In this document: piece by piece, positions 24,805 to 39,388 of the stretch
Position numbering within the stretch: the first letter of the stretch is position 1
Layout: every line of letters begins with the position of its first letter
NCBI GenBank assembly: GCA_019801415.1
Contig: JAHVJD010000004.1
Span: 248,001-312,000 of the forward strand
DNA: 64,000 nt
Direction: 5' to 3'
DNA from: Nocardioides marinus
Lineage (GTDB): Bacteria; Pseudomonadota; Alphaproteobacteria; Rhodobacterales; Rhodobacteraceae
The notes under the pieces: model-generated
Seen by the model: the letters and a program-made list of their open reading frames with translations, nothing else
The model's database searches: none
What the model was told of the DNA's origin: nothing
Program-made: the position numbers and the translations under genes

Positions 24805-25635
24805 TCACCTGACAAACTGGATCGGCAGGGTAAAGCTCATCTGTGTCAGGCGCAGCTTCTTTGGGGCCGCAGGGAAGCGTCCGGCACTTCGCACGGCCGC
24901 CAGTGCCGCCTGGTCCAGCGTCGCATTGCCCGAGGAACGGACGATGCGGCTGTTCAGCAGCTGGCCGTTGCGGGCCACGGTGAGGTCCACCAGCACCGTG
25001 CCGGCCCCCTTGCCGCGCGGCGTGCGACGCGCCACGCGGGCACGGATCTTGGCACCCCAGACATGTTGCAGCTTGGTCTGGCGTCCCGCGTCTGCCGTGG
25101 CCGCCTGCGCCCCGCCCGCCTGTCCGGCATGGGCCCCGCCGCCTGAACCGGCAGACTTTTGCTCGGCCCGCCCGGCGGAGGTCTGCGCGGCCGGTTGGCC
25201 CTTTGGCTGCGGCCTGGGCGCAGGTTTGGGGCGCGGTTGCGGCTTTGGTTCGGGTTTGGGCTCGGGCTTGGGTGGCGGAGGAGGCGGGGGCGGCGCGGTG
25301 TCCGCCTGCGGTGCTTCCGCCCGTTGCGGCTCGCTCAGGGCGATGAGCGCTGCGGCGCGCGGCGTCCGGGCCAGATCGAATTGCGGCAGTGCGGGCGATT
25401 GCGGCTGCTGCAGCGGCTCGGCCATCTCGGTTTCGAGCGTCGCTTGGGTCTCGGGCGGGCGTTCCCAGGCGTCCACCATTTTGGCAATCGTCTCCGGCGC
25501 CGCCTGGATCGAGACCATGGCCTCGCCACCTGAGCCGCTGGAGGCGGCACCGCTCTCGGGGGCGCTGCTGAACAGCGTGATGTGAATCACCCCCGCAATG
25601 GCGGCAAAGATGATGGGTTCGACGATTCGTTTCAT
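24805..25635 (-). CDS. tonB: Energy transducer TonB
   Basis: 276 residues: one N-terminal membrane helix, a long periplasmic linker with a poly-Pro stretch and Pro-Lys/Pro-Glu repeats (about residues 115-150), and a C-terminal TonB domain with GTVLVDLTVARNGQLLNSRIVRSSG and LDQAALAAVRSAGRFP. It carries proton-motive-force energy from ExbB/ExbD to outer-membrane receptors. Start ATG 25635 overlaps the exbD stop by 4 nt. It is last in a leftward iron-uptake unit. Confidence 0.93.
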   Translation of the reverse strand: MKRIVEPIIFAAIAGVIHITLFSSAPESGAASSGSGGEAMVSIQAAPETIAKMVDAWERPPETQATLETEMAEPLQQPQSPALPQFDLARTPRAAALIALSEPQRAEAPQADTAPPPPPPPPKPEPKPEPKPQPRPKPAPRPQPKGQPAAQTSAGRAEQKSAGSGGGAHAGQAGGAQAATADAGRQTKLQHVWGAKIRARVARRTPRGKGAGTVLVDLTVARNGQLLNSRIVRSSGNATLDQAALAAVRSAGRFPAAPKKLRLTQMSFTLPIQFVR

Positions 25636-26015
25636 GGCTGACGCACCACCAGTTCCGCGTGGCTCAGGCCCGCTTCCGCCAGCTGTCGCAGGATTCGGGC
25701 AAGGGCGCTGGCTTCCAGCTGCGCATCCGCGCGCAGTTGCACCTTGGCGGCGTCGGCACTGGCGGCGGCCAGCGTGGCCAGGGCCGCGTCGCCCTCGTGT
25801 CCGCCATAGTGCAGCCTGCCGTCGGCGCGGATGAACAGCACCGGCTCGGCCTCCGGCTCGCTTTCCAGTGCCGCGTCGGGCGGGGTGACCTCGAATGGTT
25901 CCGGCTCGGCCAGTCGCGAGGTCATCAGGAAGAAGATCAGCAGCAGGAAGACCACGTTGATCATCGGCACGATGCTTTCGCCGCGCGGTCGGCGGGGTGG
26001 GTCGCTCAGGTCCAT
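25632..26015 (-). CDS. exbD: Biopolymer transport protein ExbD (second copy)
   Basis: 127 residues with one N-terminal membrane helix carrying the conserved Asn/Asp region (SIVPMINVVFLLLIFFLM) and a small periplasmic domain. In ExbD the proton-carrying Asp lies early in this helix; here the position reads PMINVVF, with Asn where the neighbouring ExbD has PMIDVVF. It may therefore be the non-conducting partner of the pair. It overlaps tonB by 4 nt. Confidence 0.88.
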   Translation of the reverse strand: MDLSDPPRRPRGESIVPMINVVFLLLIFFLMTSRLAEPEPFEVTPPDAALESEPEAEPVLFIRADGRLHYGGHEGDAALATLAAASADAAKVQLRADAQLEASALARILRQLAEAGLSHAELVVRQP

Positions 26016-26025
26016 CGGCGCCTCC

Positions 26026-26403
26026 TCATTCCACCAGGACGAAATTGGTCAACCCTGCCTGCCGCAGCAGGGTGGTGACATCGGTGATCCGCTGCAGGTT
26101 GGCCCCGTCGCGGCCGCGCAGGATCAGCATGTCGGCGGGCGATGTCATCAGCGGTGCCAGCGCCTGGGTCAGGTTCTTGTCCGCAACCGGCACGCCGTTC
26201 ACATCCAGGTTGTTCGCGCCAATTCCAATCAGCCGGGGCGGCCCGTCGTAGGAGCCGCCCTGGCCCGCCAGCGGCAACTGCAGCACCGCGTCCGAGCCGA
26301 AGCGTGAAGCCAGCATGAAGAACACGAGGAGCAGAAAGACCACGTCGATCATCGGCGTCAGGCTGGGCTTGCGCCGCCGCCGCGGGGCTTGGGTGAACTG
26401 CAT
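26026..26403 (-). CDS. exbD: Biopolymer transport protein ExbD (first copy)
   Basis: 125 residues starting MQFTQAPRRRRKPSLTPMIDVVFLLLVFFMLA. The helix holds the proton-relay Asp (PMIDVVF) expected in ExbD, followed by a periplasmic domain. ATG 26403 is chosen because the family begins just before this helix. It lies 4 nt after exbB. Two tandem ExbD proteins after one ExbB is seen in some alphaproteobacterial siderophore-uptake loci. Confidence 0.92.
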   Translation of the reverse strand: MQFTQAPRRRRKPSLTPMIDVVFLLLVFFMLASRFGSDAVLQLPLAGQGGSYDGPPRLIGIGANNLDVNGVPVADKNLTQALAPLMTSPADMLILRGRDGANLQRITDVTTLLRQAGLTNFVLVE

Positions 26404-26407
26404 GGGA

Positions 26408-27403
26408 TCACTCGGCCGCCAGCTGCAGGTGCGGCTGTTCCCGGGCGACGAAGATGCGTGTGGCACTGTCCTCGATGTCCTGGCGGATGCGGGCGATCAC
26501 CGCCTCGAACCAGGTCAGCGCCGCGGAGGCGGGAATCGCCACCGCCATGCCCGCAGCGGTGGTCAGCAGCGCCTCCCAGATGCCGCCGGCCAGCAGCGCC
26601 GGGTCCGCCTTGGAACCCGCCGCCTGCAAGGCCTGGAAGGCGGCGATCATGCCCAGAACCGTGCCGAGAAGACCCAGGAGCGGCGCGATGGTGGCGATCA
26701 GCTCCAGCGCGCCAAGGCCGATGCTGGCGCTGGCCAGATGCAGCTTGGCAACGCGGGCGGTTTCCTCGCGGGCGCGGTTTTCGGGCAGGGTCGCGCTGGC
26801 GGTCAGCGCGGCGGCGACAACGCGCGAACGGATGCCGATGCGGCCCTTGACGATGGCTAGCGCGGCCTCGGCATCGCCGCGTTCAAAGGCGGCCACGGCC
26901 TTGCCCGCCTTGCCGCGCGACCAGGCACCGATCAGCGCCAGTCGCCAGATCTTCCACAGGATCAGTGCCAGCGTGATCACCGACAAAGCCGCGATCGCCC
27001 AGATCGAGGGGCCGCCGTCACGCAGGAACTTCAGCGCTTTGGCGGTGGCATTGCTGGCCATTTCCGTCAGCTCGTCCTGCCGCGTCACGGTCGCGGGCGC
27101 TTCGGCGCTGGCTGGCGAAGCCTGCTGCGGCGGCGTTTCCCTGACCGGCGCGGCCTCTTCCGTCGCTGTGGGCGCGGCGGTCTCTGTCGCGGCCTGCGCC
27201 GGTGGGGTTGGGATCAGCGGCGTCGGTGCCGCCGCATCGGCGCCATCGCCGGGCAGCAGCGGTTCGGCCCCCGGTGCTTCGAGTGCGATGAAAGGGACCG
27301 GCGGTGCAGCCGGTGCGCCCTGAGGATCCTGTGCCTCCTGCGCCAGTACCGCCGGGACGCTCATCACAAGGGCGGCGAGGGCTGCGGAAATACGAAGGGT
27401 CAT
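26408..27403 (-). CDS. exbB: ExbB / MotA-TolQ-ExbB proton channel protein
   Basis: 331 residues. A signal peptide ([22 protein letters not shown]) and an Ala/Pro-rich periplasmic segment of about 110 residues precede the MotA/TolQ/ExbB core: a membrane helix near residues 150-170, then IGLGALELIATIAPLLGLLGTVLGMI and GIWEALLTTAAGMAVAIPA. The long N-terminal extension is typical of alphaproteobacterial ExbB. Start ATG 27403 overlaps the upstream gene's stop (ATGA). With the ExbDs it forms the stator that drives TonB. Confidence 0.92.
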   Translation of the reverse strand: MTLRISAALAALVMSVPAVLAQEAQDPQGAPAAPPVPFIALEAPGAEPLLPGDGADAAAPTPLIPTPPAQAATETAAPTATEEAAPVRETPPQQASPASAEAPATVTRQDELTEMASNATAKALKFLRDGGPSIWAIAALSVITLALILWKIWRLALIGAWSRGKAGKAVAAFERGDAEAALAIVKGRIGIRSRVVAAALTASATLPENRAREETARVAKLHLASASIGLGALELIATIAPLLGLLGTVLGMIAAFQALQAAGSKADPALLAGGIWEALLTTAAGMAVAIPASAALTWFEAVIARIRQDIEDSATRIFVAREQPHLQLAAE

Positions 27404-28452
27404 GGCTTGCTCCAATAAGCTGCGATGTAGTGGGTGGCGGGGTCGGCCTGGGCGTCTTTGACCGCCGTCCGCACCGGTTGCGTTTGGGATTTTTCGGCGG
27501 CGAACCACAGGAAGTGGTCGCGGTGTTCCGGCCACGCCGCCAGCGCCAGTTCGGTCAATGCATCGCCCTGACGCCGGTCCAGCCAGCGCAGGGTGATGCC
27601 TGCGGGTGGGGTGAGCGGATAGCCGCAGTCCGCGCCGCCATCGGCCTGCAGCACCGCCGCGCCGCTGGCGTCCGCAGGCAGGCTGTCCAGAATGCGCGCG
27701 ATGGCGGGCAGGGCGGTTTCATCCCCGTACAGCAGTATCTTGCGCGCATCAGGGATGCCGCCGCCGCCGGGTCCGGCAATGGCCAGCCGGTCACCCGGCC
27801 GGGCGCGGTTGGCCCATTCCGTTGCGCGGCCCCCCTCATGCACGAAGATGTCGAACGCCATCTCGCCGCTCTGGTGGCAGATTTTGCGGGTGGTATAGAC
27901 CGGCCGGTGCAGCGCCATCTCTCCCTTGGGCCAGATGGTGGCGCCGTTCTCGCCCAGCCGCGGCCACTCCGGCGTTTCGCAGTCAGAAGGCGGTAGCAGC
28001 AGGCGAAAGTGAATGGCATCGTCCTGAAATCCGGAGAAGTCGTCGCCCTTGATTGTCACCCGCAGAAAGCTGCGCCCCAGCGGTGCGACCGACTGCACGG
28101 TGGTGAAATGCACGTTCGGCGGCACCGCGCCTGCGGCCTCGCCGCCCTGCCAGCGCAGGGTCTCGGCCGCCTGCGGCTGCAGCCCGCGCAGCTGTTCGAC
28201 GAAACTGTCCTGCAGCATCTGCAGCCGGTCGGGCAGGGCAGCGCGCAGCCGTACCTCGCAGCCCTCCGCGCCCGCTTCGGCCTGTAGGCGGCCGAAATCG
28301 CGCACCTCGACAAGGATCCGCTGCGCGCTGTCTTCCAGTATCTCCAGCTCGTACACCTGCGCCTGCTGCCGCATCGTCCCGGCCAGGGCGGCAAAATCCA
28401 GCCCTGCTAGCGTGGCGCGGGTCTCCAGTGTGAACGTCGGGCTGATTGTCAT
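27400..28452 (-). CDS. Siderophore-interacting protein (ferric-siderophore reductase)
   Basis: 350 residues in three parts: an N-terminal DUF2218-like domain (about 1-100), a FAD-binding SIP domain ([50 protein letters not shown]) and a C-terminal NAD(P)H-binding SIP domain ([18 protein letters not shown]). The family uses NAD(P)H and FAD to reduce ferric siderophores in the cytosol. The DUF2218-SIP fusion is common in alphaproteobacteria. It is first of the leftward unit with exbB, two exbD and tonB, so iron release and outer-membrane energisation are co-expressed. Confidence 0.92.
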
Positions 28453-28614
28453 TCCGGGCCTTCCCTGCTGCCAGCAAAGCCGCAGGAGCCAAGCGGCGCG
28501 GCGCAGCCGGGGCCGGGTCATCCTGTCAGCTGTTCGATTGTGCGTGGCTGGGCGCGGCGGCGGGACATGCGGGCCGGGGCCGTAGCTGGAAACGCGCCAT
28601 GCGGCGCATCGCTG

Positions 28615-28754: not shown

Positions 28755-30173
28755 ATGACCAGTGACGCGCCCAGCAACCCGCCCAGCCTCCGCCCCGACC
28801 TTGCGCCGCAGCCGCAGTTCCGCGAGGCGCCCCGTGACGGCCAGCCGACTCTCGGCATGGTCTCGCTTGGCTGCCCCAAGGCGCTGGTGGACAGCGAGCG
28901 CATCCTGACCCGCCTGCGCGCCGAGGGCTATGGCATCTCGCCCGATTACGCGGGCGCCGACGCGGTGATCGTCAACACCTGCGGTTTCCTGGATTCGGCC
29001 AAGGCCGAAAGCCTCGAGGCGATCGGCGAAGCGCTGAAGGAGAATGGCAAGGTGATCGTCACCGGCTGCCTCGGCGCCGAGCCGGATTATATCCGCGAAC
29101 ATCACCCGCGAATCCACGCCGTCACCGGCCCGCACCAGTATGAGCAGGTGCTGGACGCGGTGCATTCCGCGGTGCCGCCCAGCCCGAACCCCTATGTGGA
29201 TCTGTTGCCTGCGGCGGGGGTGAAGCTGACCCCGCGCCACTTCAGCTATCTGAAGATTTCCGAGGGCTGCAACCACAAGTGCAAGTTCTGCATCATCCCC
29301 GACATGCGCGGCAAGCTGGCCTCGCGCCCGGTCCACGCCGTGCTGCGCGAAGCGGAGAAGCTGGTCGAGGCCGGTGTGCGCGAGCTCCTGGTGATTTCGC
29401 AAGACACCTCGGCCTACGGTCTGGACCGCAAGTATTCATCCCACCCGTGGAAGGGTGAGGAGGTGCGCAGCCATATCCAGGACCTCAGCCGCGAGTTGGG
29501 CAAGCTGGCCCCTGCCGAGGACCTCTGGGTGCGGCTGCACTATGTCTACCCGTATCCGCATGTGCGCGAACTGATCCCGCTGATGGCGGATCCGGACAAT
29601 GCGCTGCTGCCCTATCTGGATATCCCCTTCCAGCACGCCCACCCGGACGTGCTGCGCCGCATGGCACGGCCCGCGGCAGCGGCGAAAACGCTGGACGAGA
29701 TCCGCAACTGGCGCGAGACCTGCCCGGACATCACCCTGCGCTCGACCTTCATCGTCGGCTACCCCGGCGAGACCGAGGCGGAGTTCCAGCATCTCTTGGA
29801 CTGGATGGATGAGGCGCAGCTGGACCGGGTCGGCTGCTTCAAATACGAAAACGTCGACGGCGCGCGCTCCAACGACCTGCCGGACCACGTCCCGGAGGAG
29901 GTGAAGCAGGAGCGCTGGGAGCGCTTCATGGAGAAGGCGCAGGCCATCTCCGAGGCCAAGCTGGCGGCCAAGGTCGGCCAGACTTGCCAGGTGATCGTCG
30001 ATGATATCGACGAGGATGGCATCGCCACCTGCCGCACCAAGGCCGACGCGCCGGAGATCGATGGAAACCTGTTCATCGATGAGAACACCGAGGGGCTGCA
30101 GGTCGGCGATCTGGTCACCGTGACCGTGGACGAGGCCGGCGAATACGACCTCTGGGGTGCCCGCGCCGAGTGA
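28755..30173 (+). CDS. rimO: Ribosomal protein S12 methylthiotransferase
   Basis: 472 residues. An N-terminal UPF0004 domain binds the auxiliary [4Fe-4S] cluster (Cys in SLGCPKA, VNTCGF and VTGCLG), followed by a radical SAM domain with the CNHKCKFC motif and a C-terminal TRAM domain. RimO adds a methylthio group to Asp 88 of ribosomal protein S12. ATG 28755 is chosen as the natural N-terminus; the frame is open far upstream but without family similarity. It is monocistronic, followed by a strong terminator. Confidence 0.96.
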
Positions 30174-30202
30174 GGCGCAGACGTAACCGCCTGATTTTAT
30201 TG

Positions 30203-30233
30203 AACCGGCCCGCTCAGTGCGGGCCGGTTTTTT
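30203..30233 (+). terminator. Rho-independent terminator of rimO
   Basis: An 11-bp stem AACCGGCCCGC/GCGGGCCGGTT with a TCAGT loop is followed by six T. Confidence 0.95.
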
Positions 30234-30277
30234 CGTCGGACGGTGCCCTTGCAGAAACCACTGGCTTTTTGCGGCGA

Positions 30278-30295
30278 TATAGTTGACACTGTCAA
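30278..30295 (+). promoter_or_regulatory. marR promoter and operator
   Basis: A near-consensus -10 TATAGT (30278-30283) runs directly into a perfect 13-bp palindrome TTGACA-C-TGTCAA (30283-30295), which ends 5 nt before the MarR ATG. The site would cover the transcription start, fitting autorepression by the MarR protein. The short leader has no Shine-Dalgarno, so the mRNA may be nearly leaderless. Confidence 0.55.
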
Positions 30296-30300
30296 TTACC

Positions 30301-30753
30301 ATGACAGATGACCGTTTTCAGCTTCACAACTCCCTGGGCTACCAGATCACCATGCTGGCGCGGGTGATCGAACGCCGGTTCGAACAGCGCATCGCCGACT
30401 ACGGGCTGACCCGCCCGATGTGGTGCGTGCTGCTGGCGGCCGGGCAGGAGGGGCTGCACAGCCCGTCCGAGATCGCCGATTTCATCGGGATCGACCGCAC
30501 CGCCACCTCGCGCACCTTGCGCAAGATGGAGGAGCGCGGCTTCATCACCCGCGGCAGCGGCGATGGGGACGGGCGCTCGATCCATGTCACCCTGCGCGAG
30601 CGTGGCAAGCAGGCATTGGAGGCGGTGCTGCCGATGGCGCAGGAGAACGCCGCGCATTTCGAGGCCAAGCTGACCGAACAGGAGCTGGCGCAGCTGCGCG
30701 CCGCCGCCGCCAAGCTGCTGCGGGACGAGCCGCGCATCGTACCGAAACTCTGA
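30301..30753 (+). CDS. MarR family transcriptional regulator
   Basis: 150 residues. MarR winged helix: LTRPMWCVLLAAGQEGLHSPSEIADFIGIDRTATSRTLRKMEERGFITR, followed by the wing (GDGDGRSIHVTLRERGKQAL) and a C-terminal dimer helix. MarR proteins usually respond to small phenolic or aromatic ligands. The reductive dehalogenase starts 38 nt after its stop on the same strand, so the two are cotranscribed and the regulator is probably the sensor for the halogenated substrate. The start has no Shine-Dalgarno; a palindrome sits just upstream. Confidence 0.92.
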   Translation: MTDDRFQLHNSLGYQITMLARVIERRFEQRIADYGLTRPMWCVLLAAGQEGLHSPSEIADFIGIDRTATSRTLRKMEERGFITRGSGDGDGRSIHVTLRERGKQALEAVLPMAQENAAHFEAKLTEQELAQLRAAAAKLLRDEPRIVPKL

Positions 30754-30791
30754 CCCGCTCCCCCCCAGCGAACGAACCGCAAGGAAGAATC

Positions 30792-33700
30792 ATGGGCAAA
30801 CTGTTTTCCTACCGCAACCGGCCGGTGCATCTGGGCGCCTATCCGATGGAAACTCTGGCGCGGCAGGCTGCCGCTGAGGGGCTGGAGGCGGTCCCGGTGC
30901 GGCCCCAGACCGCCTTCCGCCGCCCCGGGGCGCCGCTGTCGATCGTCAACGCGATGCGCGACTACCAGGCAATGCTGGATGCCACCCGCGAGGGGCTGGT
31001 CAAACGCGAGCGCGCCGAAATCCCAAGCGACCCGCAGGAGCGCAGCGATCATCTGAAGGCCTTTGGCTATTTCTGCGATGCGTCCATCGTCGGCGCCTGC
31101 GCAGTGCCGCCGTCGGCCTGGCTGGACACGCCGCTGGCCAACCCGGACGTGGACGCGCTGGCCGAGGCGCTGCGCAGCAAGCAGACCAAGACCTTTGCCT
31201 CGGGCATCGACGCGGTGATGGCCACCTTGCGCGAAACCATGGATGCGCCGCCCGCCAGCTGCCGTCATCACGGCCATGCGCTGGTGTTCCTCTATGAATT
31301 TCCCCGTGACCCCGAACCGGGCGAAGACGGCACCGACTGGCTGGCGGACGCACAGGACCAGCGCGCCTGCCTGCGCGCGGCGGAAACCGTGGTGACGCTG
31401 GCCAGCTACATCCGTCTGCTCGGCTGGGAGGCCCGCGCCCATACCGGCGCGGCGACCGATGTTCACCTGGCGCAGCTCGCGGTGCAGGCGGGGCTGGCCG
31501 CGTTTGAGGATGGCGAACTGGTGAACCCCTTCCTCGGCCGCCGCTTCGGCATCGCCGCGGTAACCACCACGCTGGAACTGGCCCACGACCTGCCGCTGGT
31601 GCCGGGGCAGACGCCGGGGCTGGGCTATCGCTTTGGTCTCGGCCGCCACGCCAAAAGCGCCGCCACCCGCGACCCTTATGCCAAGCGCCGCTTCAAGGAT
31701 GGCCCGCACCCGTTCGAGACCCTGAAGCGTGTTGACGATCCCACCACCTATATCGACGAGGTGAACGTCGCCCGCGTCCCAAAACGCGCCGACATGTTCG
31801 CCCGCACCCTGTTCGGCGACCTCGGCAAAGGCCCGCAGGAGGCCGCCAAGAACGGCAACTACGTGCGCAAGTCGTCCTCGGCTTTTGCCTTCCGCTTCTC
31901 GCTGGCGGCCTTCGTGCTGCTGCAGGACGGCGAGGTCGCGCCAGAGGTGCATCCCTCCGCCGCCGACTCCGCCCGCAACGCCGCCAATATCAAGGCCACT
32001 GCCTATTTCCTCGGCTGCGATGCGGTGGGCATCTCGCGCTGCCCGGACTGGGCCTATTATTCCCATGACGCGGCAGGCGAAAAGCTGGACCCCTACCACA
32101 AGAACGCCATCAGCATCATCATCGATCAGGGGCACGAGACGATGGATGGTGCGTCGGGCGACGACTGGATCGCCTGCGCGCAATCGATGCGCGCCTATCT
32201 GCGGTTCTCGCTGCTGGGCGGGGTGATCGGCCAGCAGATCCGCAACCTCGGCTATTCCGCCCGCGTGCATTCGGTGATGGACGGCGAGGTGCTGCAGCCG
32301 CCCTTGCTGCTGCTTTCGGGTCTGGGCGAGGTCTCCCGCATCGGCGAGGTGATCCTGAACCCCTTCCTCGGCCCGCGCCTGAAATCCGGCGCGATCACCA
32401 CCAACCTGCCGATGGACCACGACAAGCCGGTGGATTTCGGCCTGCAAAAATTCTGCGAGGCTTGCAATAAATGCGCCCGCGAGTGTCCGTCGGGGGCCAT
32501 CACCGCCGGGCCGAAGCTGATGTTCAACGGCTACGAGATCTGGAAATCCGACAGCCAGAAATGCACCACCTACCGGGTCACCGTCCCCGGCGGCGCCATG
32601 TGCGGGCGCTGCATGAAGACCTGCCCGTGGAACCTCGAAGGCCTGTTCGCCGAGGCCCCGTTCCGCTGGGCGGCAAGGAACGTCCCGGGCAGCGCGCCGC
32701 TATTGGCGAAACTCGACGATGCGCTGGGCAACGGTGAAGTGAACCCCGTCAAGAAATGGTGGTGGGATCTGGAGATGGAGGACGACGGCGCCTACCTGCC
32801 GTCGAAACACCCGGTCAATGCGCGCAAGCTCTCCAAGGACCTGGACCTGAAGTACGAGGATCAGACCCTGGCGGTCTACCCCGCGCCGCTGGCGCCGCCG
32901 CCCTACGCCTGGCCCGCGCCGATGGACCGCGAGGCGGGGATCGCGGCCTATGAGAACATGATAACGGCGGAAGAACACAAACGCCGTCGTGCCGCAGGCC
33001 AGCCGCACGAGCATGTCTATACCGCCGATCAGGGCGACGCGCCGGTGATGCGGGTCAGGCTGTCCAAGGTCGAGCACATGACCGATGCGGTGACCAAATA
33101 TGAATTCTCCATGCCCGACGGATCGCCCCTACCTGCCGCAACGGCCGGCGCCCACATCGACGTGGTCGTCGCGCCGGAATACTTCCGTCAGTACTCGCTG
33201 TCGGGCGACCCTGCCGACACCTCGAAATACCAGATCGCGGTGCTGCGCGAGGACGCGGGGCGCGGCGGCTCGCGCCTGCTGCACCGCATCTTCGAGGAAG
33301 GCCGCATGGTGTTTGTCTCCAAGCCCATCAACCACTTCTCGCTGCACGAGGATGCCGAGAAATCCTACCTGATGGGCGGCGGTATCGGGGTCACCCCGAT
33401 GATCGCCATGGCCCACCGCCTGCACGCGCTGGGGCGCGATTTCGAGTTCCGCTACTCCTGTTCCAAACGGGCCAATGCGGGCTTCCTCGCGGACCTCAGG
33501 CAGGTGCCTTGGGCCGACAAGGTGCATCTGCATTTCTCCGACGAGGGCAGCCGCGTGGATCTGGCAGAGGTGCTGCAATGGGCACCCGGCCGCCATGTCT
33601 ACACCTGCGGGCCGGACGCCTACATGCAGGCGGTTCTGGACACCGCCCGGGCCAACGGCTTCCCGGAGGAAAACCGCCACATGGAATATTTCTCGGTGCC

Positions 33701-33989
33701 GGAACAGCCCGAGTATGAAAACCACGACTTCACCCTGAAGCTTGCGAAAACGGGCCGCGAAATCGTGATCCCCGCCGACAAATCCGCAACCGACGTGCTG
33801 GCCGAGGCGGGCATCCATGTCGATGTAAAATGCTCGGACGGGATCTGCGGGGTGTGCAAATGCGGGCTGCTCTCGGGCGAGGCCGAGCACCGCGATTTCG
33901 TCCTGTCCAACAAGCAGCGCGAGCGTGCCATCATCCTCTGCCAGTCCCGCGCGGCGGAGCCGGGCGGCGTGCTGGAGGTGGATCTCTAA
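30792..33989 (+). CDS. Self-sufficient reductive dehalogenase (cobalamin, 2x4Fe-4S, flavin, 2Fe-2S)
   Basis: 1065 residues. Residues about 90-290 are a degenerate copy, and about 395-550 the main copy, of the cobalamin-binding nitroreductase-like fold of reductive dehalogenases. Two [4Fe-4S] motifs follow: Cys 555, 558, 561, 565 (CX2CX2CX3CP) and Cys 591, 604, 607, 611. The C-terminal 330 residues are a phthalate-dioxygenase-reductase-like module: RQYSLS (799-804), GGGIGVTP (862-869), CGP at 939, and a plant-type [2Fe-2S] with Cys 1014, 1019, 1022 and 1050. This is the layout of catabolic, NAD(P)H-dependent enzymes such as BhbA and NpRdhA, which dehalogenate halophenolic acids. No Tat signal or RdhB anchor is present, so the enzyme should be cytosolic. 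AAGGAAG before ATG 30792 fixes the start, although the frame is open into marR. Confidence 0.93.
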   Translation: MGKLFSYRNRPVHLGAYPMETLARQAAAEGLEAVPVRPQTAFRRPGAPLSIVNAMRDYQAMLDATREGLVKRERAEIPSDPQERSDHLKAFGYFCDASIVGACAVPPSAWLDTPLANPDVDALAEALRSKQTKTFASGIDAVMATLRETMDAPPASCRHHGHALVFLYEFPRDPEPGEDGTDWLADAQDQRACLRAAETVVTLASYIRLLGWEARAHTGAATDVHLAQLAVQAGLAAFEDGELVNPFLGRRFGIAAVTTTLELAHDLPLVPGQTPGLGYRFGLGRHAKSAATRDPYAKRRFKDGPHPFETLKRVDDPTTYIDEVNVARVPKRADMFARTLFGDLGKGPQEAAKNGNYVRKSSSAFAFRFSLAAFVLLQDGEVAPEVHPSAADSARNAANIKATAYFLGCDAVGISRCPDWAYYSHDAAGEKLDPYHKNAISIIIDQGHETMDGASGDDWIACAQSMRAYLRFSLLGGVIGQQIRNLGYSARVHSVMDGEVLQPPLLLLSGLGEVSRIGEVILNPFLGPRLKSGAITTNLPMDHDKPVDFGLQKFCEACNKCARECPSGAITAGPKLMFNGYEIWKSDSQKCTTYRVTVPGGAMCGRCMKTCPWNLEGLFAEAPFRWAARNVPGSAPLLAKLDDALGNGEVNPVKKWWWDLEMEDDGAYLPSKHPVNARKLSKDLDLKYEDQTLAVYPAPLAPPPYAWPAPMDREAGIAAYENMITAEEHKRRRAAGQPHEHVYTADQGDAPVMRVRLSKVEHMTDAVTKYEFSMPDGSPLPAATAGAHIDVVVAPEYFRQYSLSGDPADTSKYQIAVLREDAGRGGSRLLHRIFEEGRMVFVSKPINHFSLHEDAEKSYLMGGGIGVTPMIAMAHRLHALGRDFEFRYSCSKRANAGFLADLRQVPWADKVHLHFSDEGSRVDLAEVLQWAPGRHVYTCGPDAYMQAVLDTARANGFPEENRHMEYFSVPEQPEYENHDFTLKLAKTGREIVIPADKSATDVLAEAGIHVDVKCSDGICGVCKCGLLSGEAEHRDFVLSNKQRERAIILCQSRAAEPGGVLEVDL

Positions 33990-34132
33990 GGGGCTGCCCC
34001 CGGCAGCCAGCGGCGCAGTTTCCCGCACGAGGGAAATAATCAGAATTTGTGCCCGCGCCCGGATCACCTCCGGCGCGGTGCGCGCTCGGGCTTGCCGGGC
34101 GCGGGCAGGGATGCTATGCGCTCCGTCAGTTT

Positions 34133-34147
34133 TGTTATGATATAACA
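34133..34147. promoter_or_regulatory. Zur-like box upstream of COG0523 GTPase
   Basis: A 15-bp dyad TGTTAT-GAT-ATAACA lies 14 nt before the ATG. Perfect 6-bp arms and the AT-rich core match the Zur operator pattern, and COG0523 GTPases are common Zur targets. A near-identical site precedes zinT (39374-39388). Confidence 0.75.
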
Positions 34148-34160
34148 TAAAGGGTCTGGC

Positions 34161-35363
34161 ATGACGGACAACAGGCTGCCGGTGACGGTGCTTTCCGGCT
34201 TTCTTGGGGCGGGCAAGACAACGCTGCTCAACCACGTTCTGAACAACCGCGCGGGCCGCCGGGTGGCGGTGATCGTCAACGACATGAGCGAGGTGAACAT
34301 CGACGCGGACCTGGTGCGCGGTGATACCGAACTGTCGCGCCAGGACGAGAAACTGGTGGAAATGACCAACGGCTGCATCTGCTGCACCCTGCGTGATGAC
34401 CTGCTGCAAGAGGTCCGCCGCCTCGCCGCCGAGGGGCGCTTTGACTACCTCCTGATCGAAAGCACCGGCATTGCCGAGCCGCTGCCGGTCGCCGCGACCT
34501 TCGATTTCCGCGACGCCGAGGGCAACAGCCTGTCGGATGTGGCGCGGCTCGACACGATGGTGACGGTGGTGGACGCGGTCAACCTGCTCAGGGATTTCTC
34601 CAGCCATGACTTCCTCAGCGACCGTGGCGAAAGCCTGGGCGCAGAGGATGACCGCACCCTGGTCAACCTGCTGACCGACCAGATCGAATTTGCCAATGTC
34701 ATCATCCTCAACAAGGTCACCGATGCGGGGCCGCACCAGACCCAGGCCGCGATCACGGTGATCAAGGCGCTGAACCCCGATGCCGAGATCATCCAGACCG
34801 ACCATTCACAGGTCGACGCCAGCCGCATCTTCAATACCGGGCTGTTCGATTTCGACCGGGCGCATGAACACCCGCTCTGGGCCAAGGAGCTCTACGGCTT
34901 CGAACATCACGTTCCGGAAACCGAGGAATACGGCATCTCGTCCTTTGTCTACCGGGCCCGTCGCCCCTTTGACCCGGCGCGGATCCACGCGACCCTGAAT
35001 GGGGACCTGCACGGGGTGATCCGCGCCAAGGGGCATTTCTGGATCGCCAGTCGCCCCGACTGGGCGGCGGAATTTTCGCTGGCGGGGGCGATGTCCTCGG
35101 TGCGGCCGATGGGGTTGTGGTGGGCCGCGGTGCCGACCGAACGCTGGCCGAGCCATCCCGAGGCGCGCAGCGAATTCCTGCGCAACTGGGATGAAACCTG
35201 GGGTGACCGCCGCCAGGAACTGGTGTTCATCGGCGCGGGCCTGAACCCGGAGGCGTTGCGCGCGCAGCTGGATGCCTGCCTGATGCCGGAAGCCGCGCCG
35301 GGTCTGGACCCGGCCTGGGCCACACTGGAAGACCCGTTCCCGGCCTGGCGGCGCAATGGCTGA
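34161..35363 (+). CDS. COG0523 (CobW-like) GTPase, probable zinc chaperone
   Basis: 400 residues of the G3E family: Walker [10 protein letters not shown], the metal-binding CXCC in [11 protein letters not shown] (about residue 70), ESTGIAEP, and NKVTD for guanine recognition, with a C-terminal CobW_C domain. COG0523 members insert or distribute metals; the low-zinc clade (ZigA/ZNG1-like) is Zur controlled. The Zur-like palindrome right upstream favours that role over cobalamin synthesis. It overlaps the DUF6525 gene by 8 nt. Confidence 0.9.
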
Positions 35364-37630: not shown

Positions 37631-38020
37631 TCAGGCGTCCTGCAGCTCGGCCAGCATCGGGCAGGATACATTGCCGCTGGCGCAGTTGCGGGTCAGTTCC
37701 TGCAGCGCTGCCTCCAGGCGTTCCAGCTCGGTGATCTTGCGGCGGACTTCCGCAATATGCCCCTCGGCCAGTGCCTTGACCGCCGGGCAGTCGTCGCTGC
37801 CTTGCTCGGCCAGATCCAGCATCGTCTTGGCATCCGCCAGTGAGAACCCCAGCGCCCGGCACCGTTTCAACAGCCGGAGCCGCCCCACGTCGCGGGCGGT
37901 GTAGAGCCGCCGGTTGTTCGCCGCCCGGGCAGGCTTGGGCACGATGCCTTCGCGCTCATAATAGCGGATCGTCTCGATGCCGACGCCGCTTTGGCGGGAG
38001 GCTTCTCCAATGGCGATCAT
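37631..38020 (-). CDS. merR: MerR family metal-responsive regulator
   Basis: 129 residues. N-terminal MerR helix-turn-helix (IGEASRQSGVGIETIRYYEREGIVPKPARAANNRRLY), a dimer helix and three Cys placed as in mercury MerR: Cys 78, Cys 113 and Cys 120, with GNVSCPMLAELQ resembling the Hg-MerR tail. The metal loop between the last two Cys is two residues shorter than in Tn501 MerR. ATG 38020 fits the family. It is divergent from a MerT-like gene across an operator with the MerR-type 19-nt spacer. Hg(II) is the likely ligand; Zn or another thiophilic metal is possible. Confidence 0.87.
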   Translation of the reverse strand: MIAIGEASRQSGVGIETIRYYEREGIVPKPARAANNRRLYTARDVGRLRLLKRCRALGFSLADAKTMLDLAEQGSDDCPAVKALAEGHIAEVRRKITELERLEAALQELTRNCASGNVSCPMLAELQDA

Positions 38021-38033
38021 CTCTCTTTCCCGC

Positions 38034-38064
38034 TTGCTCCTGTAGTGACTACAGGAAGTATACC
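38034..38064 (+). promoter_or_regulatory. MerR-type promoter (19-nt spacer) with operator
   Basis: TTGCTC (38034-38039), a 19-nt spacer and TATACC (38059-38064). The dyad TCCTGTAG-TGA-CTACAGGA (38038-38056) fills the spacer. An over-long spacer holding the dyad is the hallmark of promoters that MerR proteins activate by untwisting DNA. It drives the MerT-like and GDCCVxC genes. Confidence 0.85.
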
Positions 38065-38107
38065 TGCCGTCACGGCTTGCAGCAAATCCACGCGGAAAGG
38101 GCGGCAG

Positions 38108-38431
38108 ATGCAGACATACCTGAAGCTCAGCTACCTTGGTTCGTCCTCGGCGCTGCTGGCGGCGACCTGCTGCGTTCTGCCGATGCTGCTGATGTTGCTG
38201 GGGATCGGCGGCAGCGGGCTGGCGGTCTTTGGCCTGCTGGCCGCGGCCAGCTATCCCGTGCTGGTCCTGTCGACCGCGCTGCTGCTGGTCGCCGGATGGC
38301 TGGCGCATCGCCGCGCAACCGCGGCGCGGCTGCGATGGTGGCTTGGCGGCAGCGCCGCGCTGACCGCCATCGCCTGGCTGATCGCGCTGAACGAAAGCCG
38401 GATAAACGATTACCTGATTATGCAGATGTGA
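38108..38431 (+). CDS. MerT-like mercuric transport membrane protein
   Basis: 107 residues with three hydrophobic helices. The first contains a vicinal Cys pair, ATCCVLP (Cys 21-22), as in the first helix of MerT, which passes Hg(II) across the inner membrane. The cytoplasmic second Cys pair of classical MerT is not seen. No periplasmic MerP follows. ATG 38108 is preceded by AAAGGGCGGC. It is expressed from the MerR-type promoter and followed after 4 nt by the GDCCVxC gene. Confidence 0.75.
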   Translation: MQTYLKLSYLGSSSALLAATCCVLPMLLMLLGIGGSGLAVFGLLAAASYPVLVLSTALLLVAGWLAHRRATAARLRWWLGGSAALTAIAWLIALNESRINDYLIMQM

Positions 38432-38435
38432 GCCG

Positions 38436-38654
38436 ATGACCGAGCAACCGATCGAATTGCAAAGCACCCTGACCTGCCCCGAATGCGGCCATGCGCAGAA
38501 GGAAACCATGCCGACCGAGTCGTGCCAGTGGTTCTATGAATGCACGGCCTGCCAGACCATCCTGAAGCCGCAGCCGGGCGATTGCTGCGTGTTCTGCTCT
38601 TATGCCACCGTCCCGTGCCCGCCGGTGCAACGAGGCGGCGGCTGCTGTGGCTGA
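38436..38654 (+). CDS. GDCCVxC domain protein
   Basis: 72 residues with 12 Cys: CPECGH, ECTACQ, the family motif GDCCVFCSY, VPCPP and a terminal GGCCG. The family is a small putative metal-binding protein often next to mer genes. It probably receives or buffers thiophilic metal. Its mate in this operon is the MerT-like transporter. No merA reductase is found in the window. Confidence 0.85.
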   Translation: MTEQPIELQSTLTCPECGHAQKETMPTESCQWFYECTACQTILKPQPGDCCVFCSYATVPCPPVQRGGGCCG

Positions 38655-38687: not shown

Positions 38688-39350
38688 TCAGTGCGCCAGC
38701 ATTTCGTGCAGGATCTCCTCGCCGCTCATCGAGGCGGGGTAATAGGTCGGCCAATTGGTCAGCTCCTTCAGCACCTCGGCGCGGTCATCGCCCCAGTAGA
38801 GGTGGTAGTGATCCACCTTCTCCGGCGCGATGCGATGGTCGCTGAACTGGATATAGCCGGGGGCCGCCGCATCACCGCTTTCCTTCCGGAAGATGTAGCG
38901 CACCCCACGGTTGCCCTTCCTGTAGCTCAGCACTTCGTAGCCGTCCGAGACATAGGTGCCGCTGACGCTGCCCGCATCGCTGGTGAACGTGACGGTTTGC
39001 CCGTCGATGCGGATGGCATGCGTGTCGGTGCCATAGCCTATGGTGTAGTAGGCGCGGTACTCCTCGACTGTTTTGTCGCCATGGGCGGCGCGGTCTTCGA
39101 GCACCGGGTCAAGCGTGCCGTCCTGCAGGTAAGGGAACACCGACTGCCAGTCGCCCTCCCAGTCGGACAGCGGACGCGGCTGGATCTGGCTGTCCTCGAA
39201 ATAGCCCTCGTAGATGCGCTTTTCGGCCTCGGTCTGTTCATGGCCGTGGTCGTGGGAATGGGTCTTGGCGGCCATGGCGGGCAGGGCGGTGGTCAGGAAC
39301 AGGGCCGCGGCGGCCAGCGCGGGCAGAGAGGTCAGTCTGGTCTTGGTCAT
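38688..39350 (-). CDS. zinT: Periplasmic zinc-binding protein ZinT
   Basis: 220 residues. A signal peptide (about 1-27, ending PAMAA) is followed by a His-rich stretch (KTHSHDHGHEQTEAEKRIYEGYF) and the ZinT lipocalin-like domain with DWEGDWQSVFPYLQDGTLD and the metal His cluster KVDHYHLYWGDD. ZinT binds zinc in the periplasm and hands it to ZnuA. The start is preceded, 24 nt upstream, by a Zur-like dyad. Its orientation makes it convergent with the mer-type genes. Confidence 0.94.
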   Translation of the reverse strand: MTKTRLTSLPALAAAALFLTTALPAMAAKTHSHDHGHEQTEAEKRIYEGYFEDSQIQPRPLSDWEGDWQSVFPYLQDGTLDPVLEDRAAHGDKTVEEYRAYYTIGYGTDTHAIRIDGQTVTFTSDAGSVSGTYVSDGYEVLSYRKGNRGVRYIFRKESGDAAAPGYIQFSDHRIAPEKVDHYHLYWGDDRAEVLKELTNWPTYYPASMSGEEILHEMLAH

Positions 39351-39373
39351 TGGATCACCCTATCGATTCGGAA

Positions 39374-39388
39374 TGTAATAACATAACA
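39374..39388. promoter_or_regulatory. Zur-like box upstream of zinT
   Basis: TGTAAT-AAC-ATAACA has the same 6-3-6 layout as the site at 34133-34147, with one arm mismatch. It lies 24 nt upstream of zinT. ZinT is a classic Zur target, so two matching dyads in front of two zinc genes support a Zur assignment. Confidence 0.72.

Follow-up and report, generated by a model that had tools for sequence, protein, structure and literature searches.

The window analysed here, a 64,000-nucleotide stretch of contig JAHVJD010000004.1 from an assembly labelled Nocardioides marinus (GCA_019801415.1; GTDB family Rhodobacteraceae), contains a gene, rdhA, that probably encodes a self-sufficient catabolic reductive dehalogenase (RDH). 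By its sequence, RdhA is an intact reductive dehalogenase fused to a module resembling phthalate dioxygenase reductase (PDOR), which would bind flavin and NAD(P)H and carry a [2Fe-2S] cluster. We put at about 90% the probability of the whole explanation, namely that RdhA is a cytosolic, NAD(P)H-driven, cobalamin-dependent enzyme of the RdhA-PDOR type, that it acts on ortho-halogenated phenols and that it is repressed by the product of the adjacent gene, marR, through a palindromic site.

The rdhA frame is uninterrupted from an ATG to a TAA codon (30792-33989, + strand; 1065 residues), and every domain that the first-pass annotation had assigned to this single chain, that is, a dehalogenase core, two [4Fe-4S] clusters, a flavin/NAD(P)H reductase and a [2Fe-2S] domain, could be located on it (Table 1). 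The RDH model TIGR02486 of NCBIfam scores RdhA at 189.4 bits, above its cut-off of 160.35, and rdhA is the sole frame above that cut-off genome-wide. Pfam places Fer4_7/Fer4_16 at residues 555-614 and Fer2 at 986-1054. Among solved structures searched by sequence, NpRdhA of Nitratireductor pacificus (4RAS, 6ZXU) is the best relative, with an E value of about 1e-159 and a main matching stretch at residues 159-741, while residues 752-1059 match phthalate dioxygenase reductase (2PIA, E 9.8e-55) and also fused P450 reductases. The dehalogenase and reductase assignments rest on NCBIfam and these solved relatives. From the N to the C terminus, the computed order is a core-like stretch (residues 80-269), the core (392-547), the [4Fe-4S] pair, the flavin/NAD(P)H module and the [2Fe-2S] domain. 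A Foldseek search with an AlphaFold model of RdhA returned NpRdhA entries at the top and phthalate dioxygenase reductase second (E 5.2e-27). Because confidence (pLDDT) is poor near the cofactors, the model was used for fold alone, the cofactor region being too weak for distances.

The N-terminal half had been suspected of being a second, vestigial core, and profile comparison indicates that it is indeed a degenerate core copy. With hhalign, residues 80-345 pair with core residues 380-553 at a probability of 99.5% (E 7.6e-23), compared with 0.1% or less for three control pairings, and TIGR02486 scores this half weakly, at 33.3 bits. In an alignment of 93 rows, comprising the window, 80 main homologous loci (the best 80 of 157 found), 7 further-genome loci (3 of which share upstream sequence with one of the main loci) and 5 plasmid loci, the equivalent of Tyr469 is Cys193 (Cys in 81 rows) and that of Lys531 is Gly253 (Gly in 86 rows); the vestigial half therefore has no proton-donor pair. 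Such duplications, which mimic the dimer interface of respiratory enzymes, are described for catabolic RdhAs in the introduction of PMC10463259.

Table 1. Features of the marR-rdhA locus, in window coordinates, and what each assignment is based on
Feature	Position	Strand	Basis
rdhA, predicted self-sufficient catabolic reductive dehalogenase, 1065 aa	30792..33989	+	Frame, NCBIfam, Pfam, solved relatives, alignment
Vestigial second cobalamin-binding core, residues 80-269, with Cys193/Gly253 in place of Tyr/Lys	31029..31598	+	hhalign, alignment, TIGR02486 33.3 bits
Predicted active cobalamin-binding core, residues 392-547, with Ser465, Met466, Tyr469, Lys531	31965..32432	+	Solved relatives, NpRdhA alignment, profile comparison
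Two [4Fe-4S] motifs, CEACNKCARECP (555-566) and CGRCMKTCP (604-612), with Arg595 between	32454..32627	+	Pfam, alignments
Predicted flavin/NAD(P)H reductase module, residues 754-968; RQYSL 799-803, GGIGVTP 863-869	33051..33695	+	NCBIfam, solved relatives, alignment, Foldseek
[2Fe-2S] ferredoxin domain, residues 986-1054; Cys1014, 1019, 1022, 1050	33747..33953	+	Pfam, alignments
marR, encoding a winged-helix regulator of 150 aa that would repress its own gene and rdhA	30301..30753	+	Pfam MarR 2.4e-12, position beside rdhA
Perfect palindrome TTGACACTGTCAA, proposed MarR operator just 5' of the marR start codon	30283..30295		Genome uniqueness, upstream conservation

Catalytic residues and published relatives

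Aligning RdhA with BhbA and NpRdhA, as suggested at first pass, located the catalytic residues Y469, K531 and R595; loss of the Tyr/Lys pair, which had been named as grounds for abandoning the assignment, did not occur. NpRdhA residues F291, S422, M423, Y426, K488 and R552 correspond to F336, S465, M466, Y469, K531 and R595 of RdhA (237 of 507 aligned residues identical). All six are kept in 93 of 93 rows, and seven cysteines across the two [4Fe-4S] motifs are likewise invariant.

Two other identities share features with RdhA. A respiratory reductive dehalogenase, serving as the enzyme of a terminal electron acceptor, would have the RDH domain in common with it; we consider this very improbable, because RdhA has a fused NAD(P)H reductase and a duplicated core, no motif of the twin-arginine translocation (Tat) type in a pattern scan and, since its top 19-residue Kyte-Doolittle mean is just 1.28, no membrane helix by hydropathy. 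The crude Tat pattern matched 2 of the 93 rows (L038 and L083). The absence of a Tat signal claimed at first pass thus stands, and that of an anchor gene holds for the identified neighbours (RimO-like, marR and ZigA-like), which were not searched with an RdhB profile. Equally improbable is QueG, or a QueG-like tRNA enzyme with extra domains, the alternative against which the dehalogenase assignment was to be checked: RdhA belongs to the same cobalamin class III superfamily and does match the QueG model TIGR00276 weakly, but it scores 26.2 bits where the cut-off is 200, the Tyr/Lys/Arg set is complete, and a separate QueG scores 436.8 bits on another contig (C3) of the genome. A catabolic enzyme of the NpRdhA type, without a reductase, does not fit either, as the reductase module is present at residues 754-1065.

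We take Jhaorihella thermophila, the host of the characterised enzyme JtRdhA (WP_104007082), to be a roseobacter. According to the available sections of PMC10463259, JtRdhA resembles RdhA in its marine alphaproteobacterial host, its PDOR fusion and its lack of a Tat signal and, by published description rather than by alignment of the two sequences, in its duplicated core, two [4Fe-4S] clusters and catalytic residues. The biochemistry of JtRdhA is known, whereas RdhA is known from sequence; no MarR switch is described for JtRdhA in those sections. JtRdhA debrominates phenolics with NADPH, is active in air, is fastest on 3,5-dibromo-4-hydroxybenzoate and 3-bromo-4-hydroxyphenylacetate and enables E. 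coli W to grow on the latter; it also takes iodophenols, and chlorinated compounds inhibit it (PMC10463259, same sections). Because an enzyme of the same architecture shows this preference, a preference of RdhA for bromo- and iodophenols is expected, and the earlier proposal of brominated phenolics as a plausible target gains support by analogy; we infer that halogenated phenols are the substrate class in this strain.

BhbA, from plasmid pBHB of Comamonas sp. 7D-2 (WP_015585978.1), is 50.6% identical over the whole of RdhA and shares its full-length architecture and catalytic residues; its setting is a conjugative plasmid, with protocatechuate-dioxygenase and transporter genes around it. NpRdhA shares the core, vestigial domain, iron-sulphur (Fe-S) motifs and six active-site residues but has no fused reductase and relies on separate partners (PMC10463259, available sections). 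For that reason the full-layout matches to RdhA are BhbA and JtRdhA; the likening of the layout to both BhbA and NpRdhA at first pass is borne out over the full length for the former and for the core in the latter.

A further roseobacter debrominase, Ros_A3X954 of Roseobacter sp. MED193, has no Tat signal, acts on 2,6-dibromophenol, is oxygen-sensitive and has Fe-S motifs at 283 and 337 (available sections of PMC13101508). We rejected it as the published orthologue: the MED193 homologue of RdhA (locus L052) is 68% identical with the motif at 557, and the Fe-S motif of Ros_A3X954 is absent from that 19 kb locus. Architecture, duplication, NADPH use, debromination and spread among roseobacters are thus already covered by PMC10463259 and PMC13101508; what is added here is the marR-rdhA operator, a modest regulatory addition, and a set of pocket residues unlike those of BhbA and NpRdhA.

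The chemistry, electron path and role of the vestigial half proposed for RdhA are taken from published relatives. Hydride from NAD(P)H would reduce the flavin, and cobalamin would then receive electrons singly by way of the [2Fe-2S] cluster and the [4Fe-4S] pair. The ortho-halogen of the bound phenol, most likely bromine or iodine, would be released as halide, with Tyr469 donating a proton, aided by Lys531 and Arg595, and the dead N-terminal core copy would stand in for the partner subunit of dimeric relatives. The phenol product would then enter ordinary aromatic pathways. Profile searches place cobN, pobA and hmgA (individual genes, not whole pathways) above their cut-offs in the genome, and because these are present, cobalamin synthesis and use of debrominated phenols by the host are plausible.

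marR and a putative operator

The MarR partner noted at first pass is encoded on the same strand as rdhA, with an ATG at 30301, a stop codon at 30751-30753 and a gap of 38 bases to rdhA, and it matches PF01047 with 47 bits against a gathering score of 24.6. The pattern TTGACANTGTCAA, which describes the palindrome ahead of it, has no second occurrence in the 3.89 Mb genome. We compared 42 marR upstreams, obtained from 45 co-directional ones (divergent L093 excluded) by removing 3 duplicates. The site is perfect in 20, within one mismatch in 30 and within two mismatches in 38, the exceptions being L020, L025, L058 and L090; in 21 of the 42 the best site lies at an identical distance from the start codon. 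Shuffles gave a mean of about 0.2 upstreams within two mismatches, against 38 of 42 observed. These shuffles control for base composition alone, however, and the upstreams are not all independent, since 11 of them come from closely related sources: the window, nine Leisingera and one metagenome-assembled genome (MAG).

These comparisons provide good evidence for a conserved operator ahead of marR. Because the palindrome is both genome-unique and conserved, it also suggests a self-regulated marR-rdhA unit and supports control of the pair by MarR. We infer that MarR binds the palindrome at 30283-30295 and represses marR-rdhA, and that an aromatic ligand, plausibly the substrate, would release it, the phenolic inducer suggested at first pass being likewise putative. 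The operator site lies so near the ATG, with a gap of a few bases, that the marR transcript may be leaderless. In Dehalococcoides, the MarR-type protein Rdh2R stands beside RDH gene clusters and is reported as a negative regulator; its host is an obligate organohalide respirer, unlike that of RdhA, and the two MarR proteins are likened here by description (PMC6299228 and PMC7755780, available sections). A literature search, mostly of open-access journals, found no account of a marR-rdhA operator in roseobacters.

MarR adjoins rdhA in 36 of the 80 main loci; 2 of the 80 have fewer than 600 bases upstream. These neighbours were sought by tblastn alone, with the MarR of the window as query at E 1e-5, so that diverged ones may escape. 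On an 86-row tree the MarR label requires 8 changes, where shuffled labels average 28.6, and MarR is therefore clustered, yet was gained or lost several times. A separate observation concerns 13 of the 44 main loci without a MarR match (L033, L039, L044-L046, L049, L053, L057, L063, L067, L070, L078 and L080), in which TTGACA and TGTCAA form a dyad across a 22-base spacer directly 5' of rdhA; this is a different promoter or operator arrangement.

Ring pocket, substrate and counter-evidence

Several observations weigh against the function and regulation proposed above. First, Pfam at E 0.001 recognises no dehalogenase domain in RdhA and no flavin/NAD domain, and the AlphaFold model is weak around the cofactors (mean pLDDT 72.9; residues 558-622 below 50); cobalamin and flavin binding and NADPH-dependent dehalogenation are predicted activities. 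Second, the neighbours of rdhA in the window include none recognisable as a catabolic gene, and none hints at a substrate. Third, 44 of the 80 main loci have no tblastn-detected MarR near rdhA, and a sigma-70 consensus scan of 30000-34400 gave no promoter. A search of 60 other family genomes met the operator-like pattern ahead of an ATG at five places in 4 genomes; a MarR-like frame opens at one of these places, in genome G003, and not at the other four. Finally, the ring pocket of RdhA, with M335/Y357/V358/C462/V495, departs from both NpRdhA (F/F/P/A/N) and BhbA (F/S/V/S/A) at M335, Y357, C462 and V495, where BhbA has F/S/S/A, and V358 differs from the Pro of NpRdhA too. Among the 93 rows, M335 is found in 71, Y357 in 86, C462 in 73 and V495 in 90.

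Because these residues differ, the preferred or native substrate of RdhA may be other than the hydroxybenzoates of the soil enzymes. The available sections of PMC10463259 weigh against such a difference: the changes in JtRdhA near the second bromine site are described as minor and conservative, and despite them that enzyme still prefers 3,5-dibromo-4-hydroxybenzoate. Another possibility is that the same machinery acts naturally on something other than a halophenol, for example a compound with a different phenolic or heteroaromatic leaving group, dehalogenation being a side activity. The distinct pocket and the lack of a recognised catabolism-linked neighbour within the window would suit this, as would the presence of rdhA in 160 of 395 family genomes, in our opinion broad for a niche substrate. 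We nevertheless judge it unlikely, given that none of the 93 rows departs from RdhA at the residues for halophenol binding and proton donation, that marine JtRdhA, of the same architecture, is efficient on bromo- and iodophenols (PMC10463259, available sections) and that bromophenols are abundant in the sea (discussion of PMC13101508).

Distribution and genomic setting

At a threshold of E 1e-100 or better, and counting the window's own genome, rdhA has a match in 17 of 21 genomes of its own genus, in 160 of the 395 genomes of the family sample (each at least 90% complete), which represent 145 of 351 genera, and in 111 of 195 genomes of the order sample. The RdhA-PDOR architecture is therefore common in this aerobic-type marine family and not confined to a few enzymes, as the first-pass annotation had supposed; the discussion of PMC13101508 likewise places bhbA homologues across the Roseobacter clade. 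Among the matches listed, most cover the entire query, with partial ones in G514 (residues 3-564) and G300 (residues 2-871). The 80 main loci belong mostly to Rhodobacteraceae or Roseobacteraceae. The nearest homologues, from nine Leisingera and one MAG, are 85-88% identical, and the tree groups the window with those ten (11 rows, support 100). Two irregular matches were seen: G511:C4:98902-101649 covers residues 153-1065 with an internal stop and is possibly a decayed copy, and L042 lies on a MAG contig titled Pimelobacter (Actinomycetota), probably misassigned, whose rdhA adjoins Maritimibacter in the tree.

In its most frequent setting, rdhA stands between housekeeping-looking genes, for a HAD phosphatase, a DUF3572-like and a PleD-like protein. 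These names were read by eye from the sequence and not from a family search, and the gene clusters come from a crude open-frame caller. Across the 85 loci in which an rdhA frame was called, a HAD-phosphatase-like gene is present in at least 44, a PleD-like gene in 36, marR in 38, and HAD together with marR in 22, all lower bounds because some flanks are short. No HAD-like neighbour was found at the window or the ten nearest loci; in the window, marR-rdhA stands 3' of a gene with radical SAM and TRAM domains (Pfam), presumably RimO, and 5' of a ZigA-like gene. Genome G003 has no rdhA match at threshold. Its corresponding region still holds the HAD gene, the DUF3572-like and PleD-like genes and a marR that is 46% identical and has a perfect operator site. 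The G003 site looks ancestral, lacking rdhA most simply through loss. At the G003 locus (L117, 2612-8084), other frames stand after marR, one of them START/SRPBCC-like by eye. Because the surroundings vary between the window group and the HAD/PleD-type loci, marR-rdhA seems to be an old pair able to move together.

We also entertain a more specific and tentative proposal, to which we give somewhat less than even odds: that in the Rhodobacterales marR and rdhA form an old debromination cassette, portable as a pair and self-regulating, in which a dedicated aromatic-sensing MarR represses a possibly leaderless transcript through a TTGACA-N-TGTCAA site, and that the roseobacter pocket (M335, Y357, C462, V495) is tuned to some natural marine organobromine, not to 3,5-dibromo-4-hydroxybenzoate. 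If true, inducible debromination would be widespread among aerobic marine bacteria. A debrominase of a type that is oxygen-tolerant in JtRdhA, with complete catalytic residues, is encoded across many genomes of this aerobic-type marine family. MarR and its putative operator offer a local switch and a possible way to the natural inducer, and so probably to the natural substrate.

Two other roles for the locus were considered and rejected. A defence role found no match in PADLOC. The CobW/G3E-type neighbour at 34161-35363 was entertained as a cobalamin partner of rdhA and set aside: it matches ZigA with 598.6 bits (just under the curated cut-off of 600), is preceded by a Zur-like palindrome, and belongs to a gene cluster that occurs in just 9 of 86 loci, the window included. 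That palindrome, TGTTATGATATAACAT, lies at 34133-34148 (+), 5' of the ZigA-like GTPase, and a copy with two mismatches lies at 39373-39388 (-), 5' of zinT (38688-39350). The query was derived from the first site, and the second is an independent match. The Zur label for this palindrome is our assumption; the ZigA-like gene and zinT are likely a Zur-controlled zinc pair.

Elsewhere in the window, genes at 25632-28521 (-) for an ExbB-like protein, two ExbD proteins and a siderophore-interacting protein probably form an iron-uptake cluster. As the frames are called here, with provisional start codons, a MerR-family regulator at 37631-38509 (-) overlaps, on the opposite strand, a small membrane protein at 37991-38431 (+) that is MerT-like by eye and has no Pfam match.

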